NCBI RefSeq assembly: GCF_036248255.1 | Contig: NZ_CP109178.1 | Location: 3,038,001-3,102,000 of the forward strand | Source: Streptomyces sp. NBC_01717 | Lineage (GTDB): Bacteria > Actinomycetota > Actinomycetes > Streptomycetales > Streptomycetaceae | Reading direction: 5' to 3' | Length of the DNA stretch: 64,000 nucleotides | Shown: piece by piece, positions 4,483-15,918 of the stretch | How the letters are laid out: the number at the start of each line of letters is the position of its first letter | Numbering within the stretch: position 1 is the first letter of the stretch | Translations under genes and position numbers: made by a program | Notes under the pieces: generated by a model | Database searches by the model: none | What the model was told of the DNA's origin: nothing | Seen by the model: the letters and a program-made list of their open reading frames with translations, nothing else

Positions 4483-6396
4483 TCAGTGCTTGGCCAGGCG
4501 CGCGACGCCCGCCGCCCGGTAGGCCGCCTCCTCGTCCAGCGTCTCGTTCTGCAGCAACGCGGACGCCAGCCTGTCCAGCTTCTCCCGGTGCTCGCGCAGC
4601 AGCCGCTGCGCCTCGATGTAGCACTCGTCGACGATGCGCCGCATCTCGTGGTCCACCGCGTCCAGCGTGGCGGGCGCCGCCGAGAGGCCGTACGCCTGCT
4701 GGGCGTCGCCCGGGATCGCCGTCAACCTGCCGACCCTGTCGCTCATCCCCCAGCGCCCGACCATCCCACGCGCCAGATTGGTGACCTGTTCCAGGTCGCT
4801 CTCCGAACCCGTGGTGACCACTCCGTAGACCAGGTGCTCCGCGGCCATGCCACCGAGGGCGCCGATGATGCGGCCGCGCAGATAGTCCTCGGTGTACGCG
4901 TACTTGTCGGCCTCCGGCGTCGAGAGGGTGACGCCGAGGGCCCGGCCGCGCGGCACGATGGTGACCTTGCGGACAGGGTCGGCGCCGGGCTGGAGCATCC
5001 CGAGGAGGGCGTGGCCGCTCTCGTGGTACGCGGTCCTGCGGCGCTCCTCCTCCGGCATGACCAGCGGTCGTTCGGCTCCGAGCTGCACCTTCTCCAGGGC
5101 GTCCGACAGGTCGGCCTGGTTGACCTCGGACTGCTTGCGCTTGACGGCGAGCAGGGCGGCCTCGTTGGCGAGGTTGGCGAGGTCCGCACCGGTCATGCCG
5201 GGGGTCGTGCGGGCCACCTGGCCGAGGCTCACGTCCTCGGAGAGCGGGATCTGCCGGGTGTGGATCTTCAAGATCGCCTCCCGGCCGCCCCGGTCCGGTG
5301 GGCTCACCTGGACGATCCGGTCGAAGCGGCCGGGCCTGGTGAGCGCCGGGTCGAGGACATCGGCCCGGTTGGTCGCGGCGAGGACGACGACGCCTTCCGA
5401 TCCGGAGAAGCCGTCCATCTCGGTGAGGATCTGGTTCAGCGTCTGTTCGCGCTCGTCGTGGCCGCCCATGCCGGAGCCGCCGCCGCGGGCCCGGCCGATG
5501 GTGTCGATCTCGTCGATGAAGACGATGGCGGGGGCGACCTTGCGGGCCTCGGCAAAGAGTTCCCGTACCCGGCTCGCGCCGACGCCGACGATCATCTCGA
5601 TGAACTCGGAGGCGGAGGCGGAGAAGAACGGCACCCCGGCCTCGCCCGCGACGGCCCGCGCGAGCAGCGTCTTGCCGGTGCCGGGCAGGCCGGCGAGCAG
5701 CACTCCCCCGGGCATCCGGGCGCCCATCTTCCGGTACTCCTGCGGGTTCTTCAGGAAGTCGACGACATCGTTGAGTTCGCCCTCGACCTCGTCGATCCCG
5801 GCCACGTCCTCGAAAGTGGTGCGCTTGGCGCCCTCCAGTTCGACCGGTCTGGGCGGGGCCTTGCGGCCCAGTGCGCCGGCGCCGCCGAATCCTCCGGACA
5901 TCCGGCGGGCGATGAAGACCCAGAGCAGGACGAGCAGCAGGATCGGGGCAAGGGAGATCAGCAGATTGGCGAGGAAGCTGCGCTGCTGGACAACCGGTTC
6001 CGCGGTGACGGTGACATCGTCCTTGATCAGCTCGGCCCAGAGGTTGTCGTCGGCGAAGGCGGGCCGCTGGGTGACGAACTTGGTGTACGTCTTGTCGCTG
6101 CCGGGGACCTTCGCCTCTTTCCTCAGCTGCCCCTGGATGGCGTCGCCCTTGGAGTAGATCTTGGAGACGTTGCCCGCCGTGACCTGCTTGCTGAATTCCG
6201 TGTAAGCGATGGTCGGCTCGTTCCTCCCGTTGAAGAAGGAGAGCACCAGGTTGGTGATCAGATAGACGGCCAGCGCGGTCAGCAGCAGTCCGCCCCAGCC
6301 GCCCGGCATCTTCCGGCGCGGCGGAGGGGGCGGTGGGGCGCCCTCGGAGCGCCACGGCTGGTCGGTCCGATCGCGTGGCGGTACAGGACTGGTCAC
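4483..6396 (-). CDS. ftsH: ATP-dependent zinc metalloprotease FtsH (paralogue with altered pore loop)
   Basis: A 637-residue membrane AAA+ protease that degrades misfolded membrane and regulatory proteins. Two membrane segments are visible (about residues 35-55 and 141-163) around an extracytoplasmic domain, then the AAA module with Walker A GLPGTGKT (236-243), Walker B VFIDE (292-296) and SRH ([20 protein letters not shown]), and zinc site HESGH (458-462). The usual aromatic pore motif MFVG reads MIVG here (Ile269), so the substrate-gripping Phe is missing. Start is GTG at 6396 with GAGGAGC upstream. It lacks the long Pro/Gln-rich tail seen on many actinobacterial FtsH proteins; it is probably a second FtsH rather than the housekeeping one. 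Confidence 0.94.
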
Positions 6397-6503: not shown

Positions 6504-6540
6504 TTGTCAATATCCAGAATCCTGTTTACTGTTCGATTCG
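6504..6540 (+). promoter_or_regulatory. Candidate promoter of yhfZ giving a leaderless transcript
   Basis: A -35-like TTGTCA (6504-6509) is separated by exactly 17 bp from a -10-like TACTGT (6527-6532). Transcription would begin about 7 bp further on, at or next to the GTG start codon at 6540. No ribosome-binding site precedes that GTG, consistent with a leaderless mRNA. Confidence 0.55.
6518..6538. promoter_or_regulatory. Operator-like site 1 (in front of yhfZ)
   Basis: AATCCTGTTTACTGTTCGATT overlaps the spacer and -10 of the candidate yhfZ promoter. Its first 15 bases match the site at 7541-7560 at 13 positions without gaps (AATCCTG-k-TT-w-CTGT). It contains two CTGTT units. The position suggests autorepression by YhfZ; this is inference. 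Confidence 0.55.
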
Positions 6541-7478
6541 TGAACGTCACCGACGAACGCTTCCTCACCCGCAACGGCCTCGCCGCCCGGCAGCTCGCCG
6601 TCCTGCTCCTCAACCATGAGTCGGACACCCGCATGCCCCGGGTACGCGACTTCGCCGAGGAGCTGGGCTGCGGAAACGGCACCGTGCAGGCGGCGTTGCA
6701 GCTGCTGGAGGAATCCGGCGCCATCGAGACGACCGCCCGCGGCCACCTCGGCACCTTCCTCGTCCGCTCGGACCGCTCCGTGCTCTGGAGGCTCTCCGGC
6801 CTCGGCACCCTGCTCGCCGCGATGCCCCTGCCGTACTCACGCCGGTACGAGGGTCTGGCGACCGGGCTGCGCGGCGCCTTCGAAACGGCCGGCGCGCCGT
6901 TTGCCATCACCTTCATGCGCGGCGCCGGGGCCCGTACCGCCGCACTCCTCGAAGGCAAGGTCGACCTGGTCGTCCTCTCCCGCTTCGCGGCCGACCAGCT
7001 GATCGCCGAGCATCCGGTGGAGCTGGTCGCCGAGCTCGGCCCCGCCACGTATGTCGGTGCGCACGGCATGCTGCTGCGGCACGGCGCAGACCTCGACTCC
7101 CCCGGGCTGCGGGTGGCGGTCGACCACGCCTCCGAGGACCTGCGGATGCTGGTCGAGCGAGTCTTCGCCGGCCGCGAGGACATCGAGTGGCGCGAGGCCT
7201 CGTACATGCAACTGCCCGACCTCTTCGCCCGTGACGAGGTCGACGCCACCGTCTGGAACCTGGACGAGGTGCAGGACCGGATCGGGCTCGGGGTCGACGT
7301 GCTTCCGCTCGGCGACGAGGTCACCCGCGAGCTGTCGCTGCGCAACTCCAGCGCGGCGATCATCGGCCGGACCGGCGGAGCGAAGGCCCTTGCCGCCGTC
7401 CGGGAGTCGCTCGATCTCTCGCTGGTGACCCGGCTGCAGACCGAGGTACTGAGGGGCGAGCGCGTGCCCTCGTACTGA
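6540..7478 (+). CDS. yhfZ: YhfZ-family winged-helix transcriptional regulator
   Basis: 312 residues from GTG 6540. An N-terminal winged helix-turn-helix (about 15-70: QLAVLLLNHESDTRMPRVRD, then NGTVQAALQLLEESGAIETT) resembles GntR-type DNA-binding domains. The remaining 240 residues look like a periplasmic-binding-protein fold used as an effector domain (LLEGKVDLVVLSRFAADQL, then ATVWNLDEVQDR), the architecture of enteric YhfZ. It opens the yhf-type cluster and is followed 96 bp later by yhfY. It is presumably the local regulator; the effector is unknown. The gene may be leaderless. Confidence 0.85.
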   Translation: MNVTDERFLTRNGLAARQLAVLLLNHESDTRMPRVRDFAEELGCGNGTVQAALQLLEESGAIETTARGHLGTFLVRSDRSVLWRLSGLGTLLAAMPLPYSRRYEGLATGLRGAFETAGAPFAITFMRGAGARTAALLEGKVDLVVLSRFAADQLIAEHPVELVAELGPATYVGAHGMLLRHGADLDSPGLRVAVDHASEDLRMLVERVFAGREDIEWREASYMQLPDLFARDEVDATVWNLDEVQDRIGLGVDVLPLGDEVTRELSLRNSSAAIIGRTGGAKALAAVRESLDLSLVTRLQTEVLRGERVPSY

Positions 7479-7540
7479 TCCGGTGGATCCGGTGAGACCG
7501 ACCCCGGCCACCTGTGGCCTCGGACGATCTGAAAATACAA

Positions 7541-7560
7541 AATCCTGGTTTCTGTCGATT
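7541..7560. promoter_or_regulatory. Operator-like site 2 (in front of yhfY and the structural genes)
   Basis: AATCCTGGTTTCTGTCGATT closely matches the site in front of yhfZ and ends 14 bp before the GTG of yhfY, just ahead of the ribosome-binding site AGGAGG (7563-7568). Its presence at both places argues for one regulator, most simply YhfZ, acting on its own gene and on the operon. An A+T-rich stretch (7530-7562) could hold a promoter, but no convincing -35/-10 pair was found. Confidence 0.55.
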
Positions 7561-7574
7561 ATAGGAGGATCATC

Positions 7575-7961
7575 GTGGACGACCAGCTCGCATTGCGGAT
7601 CCGGCTCTTCCGTGAAGGAGGCCAGGTCAAGCCCGAAGTCGCCGACTTCGTCGCCGCCGAACTGGCCGCCCTCGAAGCCGACGGGCGCACCGTCACCGAA
7701 GCCAGCGCCGGAATGCTGACCAGTCACCTGATGATGGCCCTCACCCGGCTCCTCGACGGCCAACCGATCGAGCAGTTCCTCACCGACGACCAGGTCGCCG
7801 CCGAACTGGCCGGACATCCCCACGCCGTCGCGCGCGCCCGCGCCATCTCCGCGCGGGCCGAGCAGGAGCTCGGAGCGGCGCTCCCCGACTCGGAGATCAA
7901 CTTCCTCGGCATGCACCTCGCCGTGCTCGCCCAGCACTCACCGGCCGCCCCGGCCTCCTGA
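7575..7961 (+). CDS. yhfY: YhfY-like PRD-domain protein
   Basis: 128 residues forming a single PTS-regulation-domain-like helical bundle. The conserved-His regions are visible as TSHLMMALTRLLDGQ (about 49-63) and EINFLGMHLAVL (near the C-terminus). PRDs are normally phosphorylated by PTS proteins on such His residues to control antiterminators or activators, but this protein has no attached DNA- or RNA-binding domain, as in the enteric YhfY. GTG start with an excellent AGGAGG. It lies between yhfZ and yhfU; no PTS enzyme is encoded in this window, so whether it is phosphorylated is open. Confidence 0.75.
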   Translation: MDDQLALRIRLFREGGQVKPEVADFVAAELAALEADGRTVTEASAGMLTSHLMMALTRLLDGQPIEQFLTDDQVAAELAGHPHAVARARAISARAEQELGAALPDSEINFLGMHLAVLAQHSPAAPAS

Positions 7962-7998
7962 CCCACCCCGTCCAACCCCAGACAGAGAAGGACCAGCC

Positions 7999-8355
7999 AT
8001 GACGAAGATCCTCACCGGCGGTGTCGGCAAGGTCGAGGTCACCGACACGATCAAGCAGCTCGCGATCGACGGCATCGACATCGTCGCCTCCAGTGACATG
8101 GACGCCGCGATGAAGCTGCGCGTCGGACAGGCCGACTACTACCTCGGCACCTGTCACACCGGCGCCGGCGCCTCCCTCGGCGTACTCGTCGGCCTGATGG
8201 GCTCGGCCGCCTGCCACACCTTCGGGCGCAGCATCCCCTCCGAGGACGAGGTCGCCGCCCTCCTCGCCGACGGCAAGAAGGCCTTCGGATTCTCGATGGA
8301 CCAGATCGACGTCATCGCCCCCCTCATGGCGCGCGCCATCGCCGCCCGCGGCTGA
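7999..8355 (+). CDS. yhfU: YhfU-like DUF2620 protein
   Basis: 118 residues with a predicted alternating alpha/beta pattern. It begins MTKILTGGVGKVEVTD, with a glycine-rich first loop, and has a conserved-looking segment YYLGTCHTGAGASLG with Cys52 and His53. This matches the DUF2620/YhfU family that always accompanies the YhfT transporter. Function is unknown; the size and small N-terminal Rossmann-like fold recall PTS EIIB components, which together with the neighbouring PRD protein is suggestive only. AAGGA-type ribosome-binding site upstream of the ATG; 37 bp after yhfY. Confidence 0.8.
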   Translation: MTKILTGGVGKVEVTDTIKQLAIDGIDIVASSDMDAAMKLRVGQADYYLGTCHTGAGASLGVLVGLMGSAACHTFGRSIPSEDEVAALLADGKKAFGFSMDQIDVIAPLMARAIAARG

Positions 8356-8402
8356 CCCCGGCCACCTCTTCCTGAACACCCCGGGCACGAAGGAGTGACC
8401 CT

Positions 8403-9737
8403 GTGAGCACCACACTCGCCGCCGGAGCCGGCCTCGATTTCACACTGGCCCAGCAGCTGACCGTGATAGCCCTCTGTGCGCTGACCGCGTACATCTCGCA
8501 CATGGCGCTGGCCGTCTTCAACGACGGCGTACGCCCGTTCCTGCTGGACTTCATCCAGGGGCGCACCACGCGCAGCGCCACGACGGCGGTCTCCTTCGGA
8601 CTGTCCGCCGGGTTCATCTTCGGACTCGGCGCACCCATGGCGCTCTCCACCGGTGTGCTGAATCCGTGGCTCGTCTTCCTGCCCACCGACATCCTCGGCA
8701 TGCTGGCGCCGAAGAAGTGGCTCGCACCGATCCTCGGCGGCGCCTGGGGTGCGGTCGTCGTCTTCGGCCTGAACGGCGCGAACGACGTGGCACACGATCT
8801 GCCGGTCGACTTCATCACCGCGATGCAGCAGATGTCGACGCCGATCCTGTTCCTCTTCACGCTGTTCCCGGTGCTCGCGATCACCAAGCAGTTCGGCCGC
8901 AAGTGGGGCGGCGTCGCGGGGGGTCTCGAACTCGCGCTGGTCGTCCTCACCATGAAGGTCTGGCCGAAGATGTTCGCCGGGGCGCTGGCCATGGCCATCG
9001 GCGTTCTGATGCTGATCGCCCTGGCCATCGCCAAGGACATGAAGCAGCGCAAGGCCGACAAGGCCGCGGGCGTCACCGAGATCGTCCTGGACGACGACCC
9101 GATGGCCTCCCTGTTCAGCGCGAGCGCGGCCCGGCTGCGCAGGTATCTGCCGCTCTTCATGGTGCTGGGTGCCGGAGTCTGTGTGCTGGCGCAGATGCAT
9201 ATATTCGGCGGCGGCGAGGCGACCAGCTTCCTGATCGCCAAGGGGCAGTACACGGAAGCCGCCCAGGTCGACTTCTACCGGGTCTTCGGCTTCATCCCGC
9301 TGATCGCGACGACCGCGCTCGCGTCGGGCGCGTACGGCATCGCGGGGTTCACGCTGGTGTACCCGATCGGCTATCTGATGCCGAACCCGTTCCTCGCCGC
9401 GATCGTCGGCGCCGCCGTGTTCGCCCTCGAGATCCTGGCCCTCTCCTCCATCGGCAAGGTCCTCGGCAAGCTGCCCAGCGTCCGCGACTCCTCGGAGCAC
9501 CTGCGCAGCGCGATCGGCGACACGCTGCAGCTCGCGATCCTCTTCGGCTCACTGATGGCCGCCAACGCCATGGGCGGCGGACTCGGGATCCTCGTCGTCG
9601 GCGGGCTCTACCTGCTGAACGACGCGATGGGCCGGCCGGTCGTGCGGATGGCCGCCGCTCCGGCAGCGGTGATCGTCGGCGGAATCCTCCTCAACGTCCT
9701 GTACTGGCTCGACCTGTTCACCCCGATCAAGGGCTGA
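8403..9737 (+). CDS. yhfT: YhfT-like membrane transporter
   Basis: 444 residues with about ten to twelve hydrophobic segments (for example 20-38, 65-85, 95-120, 140-160, 180-200, 255-275, 300-330, 335-355, 385-415, 425-440). A charged cytoplasmic stretch lies around 208-232 (KDMKQRKADKAAG). It matches the YhfT family, a putative transporter found only in yhf-type clusters. The substrate is not known. It sits directly after yhfU and before php, as in the enteric cluster, and the GTG start has an AAGGAG upstream. Confidence 0.82.
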   Translation: MSTTLAAGAGLDFTLAQQLTVIALCALTAYISHMALAVFNDGVRPFLLDFIQGRTTRSATTAVSFGLSAGFIFGLGAPMALSTGVLNPWLVFLPTDILGMLAPKKWLAPILGGAWGAVVVFGLNGANDVAHDLPVDFITAMQQMSTPILFLFTLFPVLAITKQFGRKWGGVAGGLELALVVLTMKVWPKMFAGALAMAIGVLMLIALAIAKDMKQRKADKAAGVTEIVLDDDPMASLFSASAARLRRYLPLFMVLGAGVCVLAQMHIFGGGEATSFLIAKGQYTEAAQVDFYRVFGFIPLIATTALASGAYGIAGFTLVYPIGYLMPNPFLAAIVGAAVFALEILALSSIGKVLGKLPSVRDSSEHLRSAIGDTLQLAILFGSLMAANAMGGGLGILVVGGLYLLNDAMGRPVVRMAAAPAAVIVGGILLNVLYWLDLFTPIKG

Positions 9738-9773
9738 GGCCGGGTCACGTACGCCAGGAAGGAACTCTCCACG

Positions 9774-10733
9774 ATGCACACCACCGTCCCGCAGCCCGTG
9801 CTCCGTACGGTCGTCGGCGATCTCGTCCCCGGCTCGGTGCGCGGCCCCGCCCTCGCTCATGAGCACCTCGTCCTCGACCTCGACCACCGGGGCGACGGTG
9901 CGGCCGTCCTCCACCCGGACCGGCATGCCGCGGCCGTCACCGCCGAGCTGGCCGCCCTCCGGGAGGAGTTCGGGCTCGGCCTCGTCGTCGAGCTGACCTG
10001 CCGCGGCATGGGCCGGGACGCCGCCACCCTGGCCCGGATCGCCCGGGACGCGCAGGTCGCCGTCGTCGCCGCCACCGGGTGGTACTACGAGCCGTTCCAC
10101 ACCCCCGAGATCGCCGCCGCCGACATCGACGAGCTCACCGCAACCCTCGTCCGCGAGATCGGCACGGGCATCGGCTCCACCGGGATCCGCCCCGGCGTCC
10201 TCGGAGAGATCGGCAGCCACGGCGACACACCCACCGCCGCCGAGACGAAGGTGCTGCGGGCCGCCGCGCGGGCCGCGGCCGCCACCGGGCTGTCCGTCGC
10301 CACCCATGCGCAGCTCGGCCGTGGCGGCCTCGCCCAACTGGAGCTCCTCACCGCCGAGGGCGTGGAGCCGCACCGCATCAGCATCGGCCACCAGGACCTT
10401 CTCGACGATCCGGCCGTGCACCGGGAGCTCGCGGCGAGCGGTGCGTATGTCGCGTTCGACACCGTCGGCAAGGACAGCTACCAGAGCGACGACACCCGGC
10501 TGCGGCTGCTGCTCGCCCTGCTGGAGGCCGGGCATGCCGACCGGGTTTTGTTGAGCTGCGACATCTCGCGCCACGGCTACCTGCGCACGGAGGGCGGCCA
10601 GGGGTACGGGCATCTCTTCCGGAGCTTCCTGCCCAAGGCCCGCGCCGCCGGCGTCGACGACGGCCTGATCGACCTGATGACCCGCTGCAATCCGCTGCGC
10701 TTTCTCACCGGCGCCGGCGTGGAAGAGATCTGA
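9774..10733 (+). CDS. php: Phosphotriesterase homology protein (YhfV/Php)
   Basis: 319-residue amidohydrolase-superfamily barrel. Metal ligands are recognisable: His29 and His31 (AHEHL), Glu145 (LGEIGSH) in place of the carbamylated Lys of true phosphotriesterase, His178 (ATHAQ), His206 (SIGHQD) and Asp263 (LSCDISR). The Lys-to-Glu change is the hallmark of the PHP subfamily, in which Glu bridges the metals. PHP enzymes are not efficient phosphotriesterases; lactone or phosphoester hydrolysis has been proposed. An AGGAAGGA ribosome-binding site precedes the ATG; two bases separate its stop from yhfS. Confidence 0.88.
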   Translation: MHTTVPQPVLRTVVGDLVPGSVRGPALAHEHLVLDLDHRGDGAAVLHPDRHAAAVTAELAALREEFGLGLVVELTCRGMGRDAATLARIARDAQVAVVAATGWYYEPFHTPEIAAADIDELTATLVREIGTGIGSTGIRPGVLGEIGSHGDTPTAAETKVLRAAARAAAATGLSVATHAQLGRGGLAQLELLTAEGVEPHRISIGHQDLLDDPAVHRELAASGAYVAFDTVGKDSYQSDDTRLRLLLALLEAGHADRVLLSCDISRHGYLRTEGGQGYGHLFRSFLPKARAAGVDDGLIDLMTRCNPLRFLTGAGVEEI

Positions 10734-10735
10734 TC

Positions 10736-11872
10736 ATGAACCCGGCACTACCGCAGACATTCCCCCTCGCGACCGTGGCACTGGACGACGCGATCGCCCG
10801 GCAGTTCCGGCTGCTGGAGGCGACCGCCGCCCACTTCGAAGGCCCCCAGCTCTTCGAAGCGGACGCCGGCGTCGTCCCCGGTCTCGGTCGTCCCCGCACC
10901 ACCGCCCGCGTCGAAGCGGTCCTGGCCGACTTCTTCGGCGCCGAGGACGCCGCGTTCGTGCAGGGCGCGGGCACGGGCGCGATCCGCGCGGCGCTCAACG
11001 CCGCCGTACTGGCCGGGGATCCGCTGCTCATCCACCGGGCGCCCGTCTACCGCACCACCGAGGTCACCCTGCGCGGCATCGGTGTGCGGACCGTCGAGGT
11101 CGACTTCAACGACGGTGCCGCACTGCGCGAGGCCCTGGCGTCCGGCCGGTTCCGGTGGGCGTACGTCCAGCACACCCGGCAGCGGCTCGCCGACTCGTAC
11201 GACCCCGCCGAAGTCCTCGCCGCCTGCCGGGCCGCCGGCGTGCGCACGCTCGTCGACGACAACTACGCCGTGATGCGCACCCCCGCCGCGGGGGTGGAAC
11301 TGGGCGCCGACGCCTCCTGCTTCTCGCTGTTCAAGCTGCACGGTCCCGAAGGCGTCGGCGTCGTCGTCGGAGCCCGCGATCTCGTCGAACACATCCGGCG
11401 CGACAACTACTCCGGCGGCGGCCAGGTCCAGGGCCACCAGGCGCTCGACGCCCTGCGCGCCCTGACCCACGTACCGGTGATGTGGGCCGTCCAGTCCAAG
11501 GTCGGTGCCGAGGTCGCCGAGCGGCTGGCGGCCGGGGAAGTGGCCGGCGTCGCCGAGGTCCGGATCGCCAACGCCCAGGACCTCTGTCTGCTGGTCCGCC
11601 TGGACCGGCCGGTGGCGAAAGAGCTGCCCGCCGTCGCCGCACGCTTCGGGGCGGCGCCCTACCCCGTCGGCTCCAACTCGCGCTACGAGATCGCGCCGCT
11701 GTTCTACCGGATGTCCAGCTCTGCGCTGGACGACGCACCCGAGCTGGCCGACTGGACCGTACGCATCAACCCCATGCGGGCGGGGGCGGATCTCGTCGTC
11801 GACATCCTGCGCCGCTCGCTCGACGCACTGGGCGACCGGCCTGCCGAAGTGAACGACCCGAAGGACGCCTGA
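10736..11872 (+). CDS. yhfS: YhfS-like PLP-dependent aminotransferase/lyase (fold type I)
   Basis: 378 residues. The PLP Lys is Lys200 in SCFSLFKLHGPEGVG and the pyridine-nitrogen-binding Asp is in TLVDDNYAVM (174-175); GAGTGAIRAAL near residue 80 is the phosphate-cup region. It matches the YhfS family, related to class V / cystathionine-lyase-like enzymes with unknown substrate. Start ATG at 10736, two bases after the php stop, so translation is coupled. It is followed after two bases by yhfX. Confidence 0.85.
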   Translation: MNPALPQTFPLATVALDDAIARQFRLLEATAAHFEGPQLFEADAGVVPGLGRPRTTARVEAVLADFFGAEDAAFVQGAGTGAIRAALNAAVLAGDPLLIHRAPVYRTTEVTLRGIGVRTVEVDFNDGAALREALASGRFRWAYVQHTRQRLADSYDPAEVLAACRAAGVRTLVDDNYAVMRTPAAGVELGADASCFSLFKLHGPEGVGVVVGARDLVEHIRRDNYSGGGQVQGHQALDALRALTHVPVMWAVQSKVGAEVAERLAAGEVAGVAEVRIANAQDLCLLVRLDRPVAKELPAVAARFGAAPYPVGSNSRYEIAPLFYRMSSSALDDAPELADWTVRINPMRAGADLVVDILRRSLDALGDRPAEVNDPKDA

Positions 11873-11874
11873 CC

Positions 11875-13038
11875 GTGTTTCTCGACACCGTGCTCACCCG
11901 CAACCCGGAGCTCGTCGATGCCGCGGCGGCCCTCCACCGGCGTGGTGAGATCCCGCCCGACACCTATGTGATGGACCTCGACGCCGTCGAGGCCAACGCC
12001 GAACTCCTCGCCGCCGAGGCCCAACGGCTCGGCCTCTCCCTCTGGTTCGTCGTCAAACAGTTCGGCCGTAACCCCGAGCTGATCAGGGCCGTCGCCCGGC
12101 ACATCCCCAAGTACGCCGCCATCGACCCGGCCGAGGCCCGCATCCTGCACGCGACGGGCGCCCGGGCCGGCAACCTCGGCCACCTCGTCCAGATCCCCCG
12201 CCGTGCCCTGCCCGAGATGCTGGCCTGGCGCCCGGAGACCGTCACCGTCTACGACCTGGCCAATGCCCGGGCCGTCTCCGAGGCCGCCCAGCGGCTGGGC
12301 CTGGTGCAGGACATTCTCGTACGGCTCGAAGGCGCCGAGGGCACCGTCTACCCGGGCCAGGAGGGCGGTGTCCCGCTCCCCCGCCTGGACGCGTTCGCCG
12401 AGGCCGCCGAGCGGCTGCCGGGCATCCGGATCGCGGGCGTCACCGCCTTCCCGTGCGTCCTGTGCGACCCGGCGACCGGAACCCCGTACGCCACCCCCAA
12501 CTTGACGCTCGTCCTGAAGGCCCGCGAGCTCCTGGCCGCCCGCGGGCACGAGGACCTCAAGCTGAGCGCCCCGAGCGCCACCTCGATGGCCTCGCTGCCG
12601 TTGCTCGCCGCCCACGGCGCCACCCACGGCGAGCCCGGCCACGCCCTCACCGGCACGACCCCGCTGCACGCACTGGACTCCGGCCAGCCCGAGAAGCCCG
12701 CCTATGTGTACGTGAGCGAGATCGCCCACACCCTCGACGACGGTCGCCCCGCCCTCTACGGCGGCGGCTTCTACGCCCGCTCCCACATCGGCAGCGCCCT
12801 GCTGCCGCGCACCGGCGCACGCCTCGGCGTGCAGGGCGCTCCCGCCGAGAACATCGACTACTACCGGCTGCTCGACGCCCCCACCGACGGCCAGGACGTC
12901 CGGCTCGGCGACACCGCGCTGCTCGCCTTCCGTACCCAGATCTTCGTCACCCGCTCGACCGTCGCCGTCGTCGCCGGACTCTCGTCCGGAACCCCGCGGC
13001 TGTGCGGGCTCCACGACGCCCAGGGCCGGGCCCTGTAA
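11875..13038 (+). CDS. yhfX: YhfX-like PLP-dependent racemase-family enzyme (fold type III)
   Basis: 387 residues with the alanine-racemase N-terminal barrel. The PLP Lys is Lys61 in LWFVVKQFGRNPE, preceded by TYVMDLDAVEANAELL, which is the usual opening of this fold. An Arg/Tyr-rich C-terminal beta domain (YYRLLDAPTDG) is present. It matches the YhfX family; the true reaction is unknown and could be racemisation, decarboxylation or transamination of an unusual amino acid. GTG start at 11875, two bases after the yhfS stop. The run yhfS-yhfX-yhfW is tightly packed. Confidence 0.85.
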   Translation: MFLDTVLTRNPELVDAAAALHRRGEIPPDTYVMDLDAVEANAELLAAEAQRLGLSLWFVVKQFGRNPELIRAVARHIPKYAAIDPAEARILHATGARAGNLGHLVQIPRRALPEMLAWRPETVTVYDLANARAVSEAAQRLGLVQDILVRLEGAEGTVYPGQEGGVPLPRLDAFAEAAERLPGIRIAGVTAFPCVLCDPATGTPYATPNLTLVLKARELLAARGHEDLKLSAPSATSMASLPLLAAHGATHGEPGHALTGTTPLHALDSGQPEKPAYVYVSEIAHTLDDGRPALYGGGFYARSHIGSALLPRTGARLGVQGAPAENIDYYRLLDAPTDGQDVRLGDTALLAFRTQIFVTRSTVAVVAGLSSGTPRLCGLHDAQGRAL

Positions 13039-13048
13039 GGAGCACACC

Positions 13049-14290
13049 ATGGCCAAGACCGTCATCGTCGTCGTCGACGGATTCGGCATCGGCGCCATGC
13101 CCGACGCGGGCACCCTGCGCCCCGGTGATCTCACCGCCGACACCTGCGGGCATGTCCTCGACCACTGTCGCGAGGCCCTCGGCCGTCCGCTGCGGCTGCC
13201 GGTGCTCGGCTCGCTGGGGCTCGGTCTCGTCCACCCGCATCCGGATCTCGCCCGCCGCACCCATCTGCCCGTCGCCGCGGGCCGGGCCGCCCTGGGCTAC
13301 CCCGGCGCGGACACGTTCGCCGGCCACCAGACGATGATGGGTGCGGACTTCAGCCGGGTGACGGTGGCCCGGCTCGGCGACCATCTGGACGAGGTGACCA
13401 CGGCTCTGGAAGCGGCCGGGCACCGCGTCGCACCGCTGGACGGCCGGCCGCTTCTCGTCGTCGACGGCGCGGTGCTCGTGCACGACAACCTGGAAGCCGA
13501 CCCCGGCATCAACTGGAACGCCTCCGGCCGTCTGGAGGACCTCCCCTTCGACGGACCGGGCGGGATCCTCGCCATCGCCCGTACGGTACGCGCGGTCGCG
13601 CCGGTCGCCCGGGTCATCGCGGTCGGCGGTCACGCGGACGGCCCGCTTCCGCAGTTCGTACGCCTCGGCGACGCGGGCACCGTAGGCCTCGACACCCCCG
13701 CCACCGGCTTCTACCGCAACGGCGGCCTCGCCGTGCAGCACCTCGGCGCCGGCATCGATCACACCCGGCAGCTGCCCGACCTGGCCGCCCGCGCCGGGAT
13801 CCCGGTCACCCTGGTGGGCAAGGCCGCCGACATCCTGGCCTGCGACGCGGCCGAGCGGCACCCTGCCGTGCAGACCGCGGACGTGCTCACCCACACCCTC
13901 GAAGCGGTACGCGCGCCCGGCGACGCGCTCGTCGTCGCCAATGTCCAGGAGACCGACCTGGCGGGACACCAGCAGGACGCCGAACGGTACGGCCGTCTGC
14001 TGGAGCAGGTAGACGCGGGGCTCGCCGCGCTCCTGGCGCTGCTCGACGCCCCCGGCGACCGGCTGATCGTCACCGCCGACCACGGCAACGACCCGACCAT
14101 CGGGCACGCCTACCACACCAGGGAGTACGTCCCCGTGCTGATCCACCGGCCCGGTGCGGACGGTGTGGAGCTGCTGCCGGACGCGGGCAGCCTGGCGGAC
14201 GTCGGCGCCACCGCCGCCGTATCGCTGGGGCTCGACCCGGCGGGGCTGGCCAACGGGACGACACTGCGGCCGGGGCGGCACGCGGCCTGA
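13049..14290 (+). CDS. yhfW: YhfW-like phosphopentomutase-family protein
   Basis: 413-residue alkaline-phosphatase-superfamily mutase. It opens with VVVDGFGIGAMPDAG (metal ligand Asp), has the nucleophile-region HQTMMGAD with Thr as in phosphopentomutase DeoB, and ends with the metal-binding TADHGNDPTIGHAYHTREY. True DeoB interconverts ribose-1- and ribose-5-phosphate; YhfW is a divergent branch and its substrate is unproven. Ribosome-binding site AAGGAG and ATG at 13049, 10 bp after yhfX. It is the last gene of the cluster and ends at a strong terminator shared with ffh. Confidence 0.85.
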   Translation: MAKTVIVVVDGFGIGAMPDAGTLRPGDLTADTCGHVLDHCREALGRPLRLPVLGSLGLGLVHPHPDLARRTHLPVAAGRAALGYPGADTFAGHQTMMGADFSRVTVARLGDHLDEVTTALEAAGHRVAPLDGRPLLVVDGAVLVHDNLEADPGINWNASGRLEDLPFDGPGGILAIARTVRAVAPVARVIAVGGHADGPLPQFVRLGDAGTVGLDTPATGFYRNGGLAVQHLGAGIDHTRQLPDLAARAGIPVTLVGKAADILACDAAERHPAVQTADVLTHTLEAVRAPGDALVVANVQETDLAGHQQDAERYGRLLEQVDAGLAALLALLDAPGDRLIVTADHGNDPTIGHAYHTREYVPVLIHRPGADGVELLPDAGSLADVGATAAVSLGLDPAGLANGTTLRPGRHAA

Positions 14291-14307
14291 GCACGCGGGG
14301 CACACAC

Positions 14308-14344
14308 GAAAGGGGCGCCCGCCTTCCCGGCGGGCGCCCCTTTC
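14308..14344. terminator. Bidirectional terminator between yhfW and ffh
   Basis: A perfect 16-bp stem (14308-14323 with 14329-14344, GAAAGGGGCGCCCGCC) and a 5-nt loop, flanked by A's and T's on the two sides. It ends both the plus-strand yhf-type cluster and the minus-strand ffh. Confidence 0.9.
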
Positions 14345-14367
14345 GCATACGGGCCGAGCGTGGAGCG

Positions 14368-15918
14368 TCAGCCCATGAACTTCTTGAACTCGTCCGGCAG
14401 CTCGAAGTTCTTGTCCTCCTGGGCCGGCAGGCCGAACGCGCCGCCCTGCGCCGCCGCCTGCTCGCGGCGGGTCGCCGCGGCCTGCTCCTCGGCCTTGCGC
14501 TTCATCGGGTTGCCGCTCTTGCGCTTGCCCTTGGCCTGCTTGATCTGCTTCTTCTGGCGACCGGGACCGCCACCCATGCCGGGCATCCCCGGCATACCCG
14601 GCATGCCGCCGCCCTGCGCCATCTTCGACATCATCTTGCGCGCCTCGAAGAACCGCTCCACCAGGTTCTTCACGGCGGACACCTCGACACCCGAACCCTT
14701 GGCGATACGGGCCCGGCGCGAGCCGTTGATGATCGTCGGCTCCTGACGCTCGTACGGCGTCATCGACTTGATGATCGCGGCGGTACGGTCCACGTCCCGC
14801 TCGTCGATGTTGTTGATCTGGTCCTTGATCTGCCCCATGCCGGGCAGCATCCCGAGCAGCTTGGAGATGGAGCCCATCTTCCTGACCTGCTCCATCTGCG
14901 CCAGGAAGTCGTCGAGCGTGAAGTCCTTGCCCTTGCTGGACGCCAGCTTGGAGGCCATTTTGGCGGCCTCTTCCTGGGTGAAGGTCTTCTCCGCCTGCTC
15001 GATCAGGGTGAGCAGGTCACCCATGTCGAGGATGCGCGACGCCATGCGGTCGGGGTGGAAGGCGTCGAAGTCCTCGAGCTTCTCACCGTTCGACGCGAAC
15101 ATGATCTGCTTGCCCGTGACATGGGCGATCGACAGGGCGGCACCACCGCGGGCGTCACCGTCGAGCTTGGAGAGCACCACGCCGTCGAAGCCGACACCGT
15201 CGCGGAAGGCCTCGGCGGTGTTGACCGCGTCCTGGCCGATCATCGCGTCGACGACGAAGAGGATCTCGTCGGGGCTGACGGCGTCGCGGATGTCCGCGGC
15301 CTGCTGCATCAGCTCCTGGTCGATACCGAGGCGGCCCGCGGTGTCGACGATCACCACGTCGAACTGCTTGGAGCGGGCGTGCTCGATGGAGTCCTTGGCG
15401 ACCTGGACCGGGTCACCGACGCCGTTGCCCGGCTGCGGGGCGTACACGGCGACACCGGCGCGGTCGGCGACGACGCTCAGCTGGTTGACGGCGTTGGGGC
15501 GCTGGAGGTCACAGGCGACGAGCAGCGGCGAGTGGCCCTGGCCCTTGAGCCAGACACCGAGCTTTCCGGCCAGGGTGGTCTTACCGGCACCCTGCAGACC
15601 GGCGAGCATGATCACGGTGGGCGGGTTCTTGGCGAACCGCAGTCGCCGGGTCTCACCGCCGAGGATGCCGACGAGCTCCTCGTTGACGATCTTGACGACC
15701 TGCTGGGCAGGGTTCAGCGCCTGGGAGACCTCGACGCCGCGCGCCCGCTCCTTGACGTTGGCGATGAAGGCACGGACAACGGGAAGCGCGACATCGGCCT
15801 CGAGCAGGGCGATACGGATCTCGCGTGCCGTGGCGTCGATGTCCGCCTCGGACAAGCGGCCCTTGCCCCGGAGGTTCTTGAAAGTCGCGGCAAGGCGGTC
15901 GGAGAGAGTATCGAACAC
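14368..15918 (-). CDS. ffh: Signal recognition particle protein Ffh
   Basis: 516-residue SRP54 GTPase that binds signal sequences and 4.5S RNA and delivers ribosomes to FtsY. N domain (1-90), G domain with GLQGAGKTTLAGKLG, DTAGR, TKLDGDARGG-type motif (SKLDGDARGG) and an M domain ending in a Met/Gly/Pro repeat stretch (GMPGMPGMPGMGGGPG) and a basic tail. Length is normal. It is separated from glnD by a hairpin and ends at the terminator shared with yhfW. Confidence 0.98.
   Translation of the reverse strand: MFDTLSDRLAATFKNLRGKGRLSEADIDATAREIRIALLEADVALPVVRAFIANVKERARGVEVSQALNPAQQVVKIVNEELVGILGGETRRLRFAKNPPTVIMLAGLQGAGKTTLAGKLGVWLKGQGHSPLLVACDLQRPNAVNQLSVVADRAGVAVYAPQPGNGVGDPVQVAKDSIEHARSKQFDVVIVDTAGRLGIDQELMQQAADIRDAVSPDEILFVVDAMIGQDAVNTAEAFRDGVGFDGVVLSKLDGDARGGAALSIAHVTGKQIMFASNGEKLEDFDAFHPDRMASRILDMGDLLTLIEQAEKTFTQEEAAKMASKLASSKGKDFTLDDFLAQMEQVRKMGSISKLLGMLPGMGQIKDQINNIDERDVDRTAAIIKSMTPYERQEPTIINGSRRARIAKGSGVEVSAVKNLVERFFEARKMMSKMAQGGGMPGMPGMPGMGGGPGRQKKQIKQAKGKRKSGNPMKRKAEEQAAATRREQAAAQGGAFGLPAQEDKNFELPDEFKKFMG

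Follow-up and report, generated by a model that had tools for sequence, protein, structure and literature searches.

What does a full set of yhf genes, which in Escherichia coli belong to the unassigned part of metabolism, do in Streptomyces sp. NBC_01717, and how did it come to lie between ftsH and ffh? The 64,000-nucleotide stretch analyzed here (NZ_CP109178.1, positions 3,038,001 to 3,102,000; the window) carries eight such genes at 6504 to 14290, all on the plus strand, in the order yhfZ-yhfY-yhfU-yhfT-php-yhfS-yhfX-yhfW. Our preferred answer, which we hold tentatively and with a little less than even confidence, is that they form a self-contained, inducible, YhfZ-controlled catabolic operon for an amino sugar or an amino-sugar-acid conjugate. 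The cluster is of a known type, and gene neighbors and protein folds suggest that this is the best account of it now available. In such a pathway, YhfT would import the compound, with YhfU at its inner face; Php, plus an amidase in other bacteria, would break ester, lactone, or amide linkages; the racemase-like YhfX and the lyase- or transferase-like YhfS would handle the amino part; and YhfW would move phosphate on the sugar part to give a sugar phosphate, with glucosamine-6-phosphate deaminase (NagB) finishing the process where present. Every enzymatic step is one that we infer from protein family and residues. The candidate end product suggested is glucosamine-6-phosphate or a relative of it.

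An earlier note on this DNA had described eight yhf homologues running in one direction in this order, and both the open reading frames (ORFs) and Pfam bear this out; profile searches placed all eight in the expected yhf families and not in unrelated ones. The first gene, yhfZ (6540 to 7478), encodes a GntR-type regulator with a YhfZ_C effector domain (Pfam E-value, 1e-57) and is followed by yhfY (7575 to 7961), encoding a single-PRD mini-protein (1e-5), yhfU (7999 to 8355), encoding a 118-residue DUF2620 protein (7e-42), and yhfT (8403 to 9737), encoding a polytopic membrane protein and probable transporter (YhfT, 8e-153). The four enzyme genes are php (9774 to 10733), for a phosphotriesterase (PTE)-family metal hydrolase (8e-66); yhfS (10736 to 11872) and yhfX (11875 to 13038), for pyridoxal phosphate (PLP) enzymes of fold type I (YhfS-like_C, 1e-41) and of fold type III, alanine racemase-like (YhfX-like_C, 4e-24); and yhfW (13049 to 14290), for a phosphopentomutase-like metalloenzyme (Metalloenzyme, 1e-33). 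NCBIfam equivalog cutoffs are passed by YhfZ (340 bits; cutoff, 260) and YhfW (PRK12383, 447 bits; cutoff, 254); Php falls under the cutoff of its php model (PRK09875, 217 bits versus 486), and the other five window proteins pass no NCBIfam cutoff. The intergenic gaps are, in order, 96, 37, 47, 36, 2, 2, and 10 bp, a range of 2 to 96 bp where 2 to 60 bp had been given.

Active-site residues are conserved in all four enzymes, including the presumed PLP-binding Lys200 of YhfS and Lys61 of YhfX, the expected metal ligands of Php and YhfW, and the presumed phosphate-binding Thr89 of YhfW, the roles in YhfW being taken from comparison with phosphopentomutase. Solved proteins matched by these enzymes are 4j8l for YhfS (1e-97) and 4kbx for YhfX (3e-80), both described as uncharacterized, and 1bf6 and 4lef for Php. 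YhfW is nearest to phosphopentomutase and has the metal ligands and phospho-acceptor of DeoB, the acceptor at position 89 being Thr in 20 and Ser in 8 of 28 sequences, and it scores below the DeoB equivalog cutoff (TIGR01696, 121 bits versus 341). The character of Php raises the alternative of organophosphate or lactone salvage, in which Php would be the key enzyme, acting as a phosphotriesterase or phospho-sugar lactonase, an aminoalkyl part would fall to the PLP enzymes, and YhfW would act on the released phosphate ester. Php does have the conserved set of the PTE family (H29, H31, E145, H178, H206, and D263) and a weak similarity to a phospho-furanose lactonase model (55 bits; cutoff, 630), but the lactonase and OPH models both lie far under their cutoffs and nagB, the amidase, and the PRD protein are left unexplained; we regard this alternative as rather improbable. 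The two PLP enzymes can likewise be read as serving the use of D-amino acids or dipeptides, with YhfX racemizing, YhfS cleaving, the amidase and Php freeing an amino acid from an acyl conjugate, and the sugar-phosphate features being incidental. With its own structure set aside, the nearest matches of YhfX are alanine racemase (3.5e-6) and D-threonine aldolase (4e-4), those of YhfS on the same basis are enzymes of Cys/Met metabolism and methionine gamma-lyase, and a dipeptide-epimerase-like gene, below cutoff, precedes one Halanaerobium cluster (L120). However, yhfX lies directly before yhfW in all 64 loci that have both, tying the racemase-like enzyme to the phosphomutase-like one, and YhfU has the fold of a sugar-phosphate isomerase, and we therefore give this version a distinctly low probability.

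YhfU has the fold of ribose-5-phosphate isomerase B (RpiB/LacAB), and its Cys52, Thr54, and Gly57 are invariant in 47 of 47 sequences. Because it is a soluble RpiB-fold protein, YhfU is not a membrane carrier, which changes the earlier suggestion of import by YhfT and YhfU. YhfU could instead be a true sugar-phosphate isomerase and not a transport partner, YhfT working alone, a version that is compatible with the amino-sugar pathway and that we consider rather less likely than not. The fold and the three invariant residues speak for it, and the loop with the invariant Cys presumably corresponds to the E. coli RpiB loop bearing the catalytic Cys. Against this, the other RpiB residues (Asp9, His99, and the C-terminal Args), compared without superposition, seem to have no counterpart among the invariant YhfU alignment columns, and YhfU, at 118 residues only, is shorter than the RpiB/LacAB isomerases; nor does it join their sequence family, since Pfam gives DUF2620 and not PF02502, and a direct hhalign comparison with RpiB/LacAB is not significant (E, 0.24). 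In addition, of the 75 loci that have both genes, yhfU immediately precedes yhfT in 74, a single ORF separating the two in L086, and a related gene, that of the SFCGS family, is likewise found near membrane genes. The YhfU and SFCGS families are related over their full length (hhalign E, 1.2e-7; probability, 91%; 116 columns; five SFCGS sequences); the SFCGS model PF14272 (Gly_rich_SFCGS) does not match the window YhfU at an E-value of 0.001, and it matches the YhfU of one other locus (L081) at 1.4e-5.

The SFCGS genes belong to a cluster that parallels this one in part. Of five SFCGS regions retrieved, three were read throughout (Enterococcus L223, Citrobacter L224, and Providencia L225, the organisms being taken from the loci through which these genomes were reached); each of the three opens with a single-PRD gene and the SFCGS gene, after which come genes for DUF4312, DUF4311, DUF4310, a metallohydrolase, a DgaE-family PLP enzyme, and a DgaF aldolase. 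A scan of L223 returned TIGR03582, TIGR03577, TIGR03583, TIGR01437 (below the glucosaminate equivalog cutoff), and NF047796 (above cutoff). Like the yhf cluster, this set (NCBIfam EF_0829 to EF_0839) has a single-PRD gene, a YhfU relative, membrane proteins, a metallohydrolase, and a fold-type I PLP enzyme, whereas its membrane proteins, hydrolase, and aldolase belong to families other than those of yhf. Known relatives of DgaE/DgaF-type enzymes act on phosphorylated sugar acids. YhfY aligns with the PRD protein of the SFCGS regions (hhalign E, 1.5e-10), which reflects a shared domain type and size and not a special kinship, since both are PRD domains, and the window YhfY has no match to TIGR03582 in NCBIfam. 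We read the two systems as variants of one plan, which by analogy would comprise a PRD switch, a YhfU-like partner, a membrane protein, a metal hydrolase, a PLP enzyme, and a sugar-phosphate end. We note that a PfkB-like gene lies beside the SFCGS set in L223, and that by eye no kinase does in L224 or L225.

The single PRD domain of YhfY may let the phosphotransferase system (PTS) tune the process. A bolder version is that YhfY, YhfU, and YhfT constitute a new type of PTS-linked uptake, composed of a membrane protein, an RpiB-fold partner whose anion-binding loop carries an invariant cysteine, and a one-domain PRD supervisor; we think this improbable. At an E-value of 0.001, Pfam detects no EIIA, EIIB, or EIIC domain in YhfT or YhfU. 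Of the 29 yhf genomes tested, that of NBC_01717 included, all have HPr and 28 have the enzyme I N-domain, which is weak evidence because each is also present in 7 of 14 controls.

Control of the operon is suggested by a repeated element. YhfZ would bind two operator copies, one before its own gene and one before yhfY, and a ligand would relieve binding; the site comes from conservation, and both binding and ligand are presumed. The copies lie on the plus strand, CAGAATCCTGTTTACTGT at 6515 to 6532, directly before the likely YhfZ start, and CAAAATCCTGGTTTCTGT at 7538 to 7555, before yhfY, and a degenerate 18-base pattern was built from the two. At up to three mismatches, the window contains four matches, against 0.14 expected. 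In the whole 10.2-Mb genome, the only two exact matches are those within the yhf cluster; allowing up to two mismatches adds one more site (two mismatches), and the reversed pattern gives no match under the same conditions. When 140 bases upstream were searched in other Streptomyces loci at up to three mismatches, the pattern preceded yhfZ in 38 of 41 loci with a yhfZ match, yhfY in 33 of 45, and both in 31 of 41, and the reversed control gave none before either gene. We infer that YhfZ probably regulates its own gene and the other seven and little else, and this regulator thereby gains two candidate DNA sites with no further exact match in the genome. The block had been taken to start at 6504, where the codon is TTG. 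Because, in the frame that opens at 6504, the NCBIfam YhfZ model starts only with residue 18 and the operator fills the DNA before codon 13, the GTG at 6540 is the likelier true start.

Companion genes elsewhere offer a further view of the substrate. The yhf genes are widespread, relatives of YhfT having turned up in 483 stretches in one scan of GTDB species genomes; the best 80 of the 483 were kept, with a bias to Clostridium-like clusters from a first query sequence taken from Cetobacterium, and E. coli, Cetobacterium, and Vibrio loci were added to give 83 non-Streptomyces loci, 82 of them with a called YhfT ORF. By mechanical ORF calling, which sets a lower bound, at least 51 of the 82 have all eight genes. 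The window's order occurs as such in 7 of 82 and, in the commonest type, with an amidase after yhfT in 19 of 82. A gene for an amidase-signature protein of 340 to 370 residues accompanies the cluster, within it or close by, in 41 of 82 loci when the same strand is counted and in 46 when either strand is; among Clostridium loci, 10 of 16 have it. All six that were tested match PF01425 at an E-value of 1e-4 or better, four of them above cutoff. The set described earlier as complete is thus complete in the window with its eight genes, but not everywhere, as many Firmicutes clusters add the amidase; clusters of Clostridium, Cetobacterium, and Enterococcus have the same families as the window, with the amidase added in many and nagB or HPr in some. 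The nagB gene directly follows yhfW in 6 of 80 loci (five were tested, all above the TIGR00502 cutoff), in two of which an HPr gene comes next, and L121 has a weaker nagB-like gene, the seventh, upstream of the cluster. Because nagB adjoins yhfW in these six loci, the amino-sugar idea gains support; the earlier proposal of salvage of a phosphorylated amino-sugar-like compound is strengthened to this extent and is otherwise still conjecture. The operon could conversely be biosynthetic, with YhfT as an exporter, since PLP enzymes and mutases occur in biosynthesis too, but the mini-PRD protein, the nagB and HPr neighbors, and the hydrolases indicate breakdown, and we consider biosynthesis very unlikely.

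Several observations weigh against the catabolic amino-sugar operon that we prefer. First, yhfW is uncalled in 18 of 82 non-Streptomyces loci (with mechanical ORF calling and contig ends) and missing from 5 of 46 Streptomyces, and because some loci are without it, phosphate transfer is not always needed; the common gene set also contains no kinase. Second, nagB was not found beside yhfW in 74 of 80 loci, some of which are truncated at contig ends, and the window and the 46 fetched Streptomyces regions (45 from carriers) yielded no nagB and no amidase. Third, YhfT has no clear fold match, so that its transport role is predicted solely from membrane helices, and profile comparison relates it to neither DUF4310 nor DUF4311, which means that the SFCGS parallel stops short of the membrane part. 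Finally, 12 of 45 Streptomyces loci showed no operator before yhfY, and we found no metabolite or growth data on a yhf pathway.

The enteric counterpart noted earlier is indeed present: all eight families are common to the window and E. coli K-12, and seven of the eight window proteins match there by tblastn (34 to 48% identity), YhfY giving no match at 1e-8. The K-12 order differs, being yhfZ-yhfY-yhfX-yhfW-php-yhfU-yhfT-yhfS, and the K-12 set lies between frlR and trpS, not between ftsH and ffh. The substrate had been called unknown, and no functional study of yhf genes appeared among the literature listings consulted; NCBI already names many Streptomyces YhfT proteins. New here are the YhfU fold and its SFCGS kinship, the accompanying amidase, nagB after yhfW, and the 18-base operator pattern. 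Eight genes without assigned function thereby become the subject of testable claims, among them the DUF2620 fold with its related family and the amidase as a frequent ninth gene.

Some individual loci depart from these patterns. PfkB-type sugar kinase genes lie up to three genes downstream in L128, L102, and L105 (that of L128, the one scanned, is ribokinase-like and below cutoffs), and in G808, the genome of L104, an HPr gene directly follows yhfW-nagB and no enzyme I N-domain was found. In Photorhabdus, a yhfW ORF is absent from 11 of 11 loci (L122-L124, L135, L136, L139-L142, L144, and L149), and in nine of these the cluster follows FruB-like (HPr-domain) and FruA-like genes (by eye), with no kinase gene between. 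A seven-gene set with no ORF matching yhfS is carried on a 244-kb plasmid of Vibrio halioticoli (L080), downstream of a lactose-type PTS operon (by eye).

How the block reached its present place was approached through Streptomyces regions from 45 other carriers and genome G113 (46 in all), plus the window. YhfT is found in 47 of 392 genus genomes at an E-value of 1e-3, of which 46, counting that of NBC_01717, are above the Pfam cutoff; in the region of the remaining genome, G113, no yhf genes were seen. A phylum sample of 396 genomes gave two matches, both of the same genus, and none outside it. These distributions, with the short ffh junction of cluster-free Streptomyces, bear out the earlier view of an acquired block. 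Of the 45 other carriers, 22 have the cluster in one stretch with ffh and another, L055, has it next to ftsH at a contig end, so that with the window 24 of 46 carriers have it at the ftsH-ffh junction; this site is not unique to the genome of NBC_01717. No ffh is visible in the cluster's stretch in the remaining 22 carriers. Ffh was located in 20 of these 22 (19 of 21 plus G005), with no yhf gene within ~1.5 kb of ffh in any and with neither ftsH nor a methyltransferase gene beside ffh in four, and it was not found in the genomes of L064 and L066, the latter an 8.9-kb contig. Among 16 Streptomyces regions with a cluster-free ffh, 12 have ftsH 92 to 646 bp away and four have an adjoining methyltransferase gene, one of the four (L161) being a carrier that keeps the cluster elsewhere. 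The block is thus absent from this place in many streptomycetes, and the neighborhood, earlier described as core genome, varies in its ftsH side. In L072 and L074, 2.3 to 2.4 kb separates yhfW from ffh.

In a tree from a quick search of 45 Streptomyces clusters (L076 omitted) and five outgroups, the Streptomyces clusters form one clade, and location requires six or seven changes, below all 500 shuffles, although the program warned of meeting long branches, including L075. Distances of yhf and Ffh agree (Mantel r, 0.63; largest of 1000 permutations, 0.23; n = 41), with r of 0.78 for clusters away from ffh and 0.53 for those at ffh, and the base composition of the block is that of the neighboring genes. 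Because composition is normal and the distances agree, the gain is old and not recent; these comparisons indicate a block gained long ago, whose later history was mainly one of inheritance, loss, and relocation. Its original location may have been the ffh site, but the first branches (L062, L075, and L064) sit elsewhere. A second tree, which combined 27 clusters from elsewhere with seven from Streptomyces, places the latter on a long stem (1.26), with the clusters of E. coli K-12 and a Vibrio plasmid as their closest neighbors.

Four ffh-sited Streptomyces clusters (L061, L063, L068, and L070) have no yhfW match, and the first three also have no yhfZ match, their other genes being kept. For L075, tblastn finds yhfY, yhfU, yhfT, and php only, with a polyketide-synthase-like ORF nearby (by eye), and this appears to be a decaying or truncated cluster. 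In L076, where the cluster lies beside ffh, yhfT is a single open frame with an in-frame low-complexity insert mid-gene.

The genes flanking the cluster in the window are both on the minus strand and named from reading the sequence: an ORF for an FtsH-like protease on the left (4483 to 6396), named without a family search, and the ffh ORF on the right (14368 to 15918). With ffh on the minus strand, yhfW and ffh converge on a 17-pair hairpin at 14307 to 14345. The earlier note had placed one strong terminator at this end; the hairpin is not among the calls of a T-run terminator scan, and its folding is real when set against shuffles (-40.3 kcal/mol; z, -6.2).

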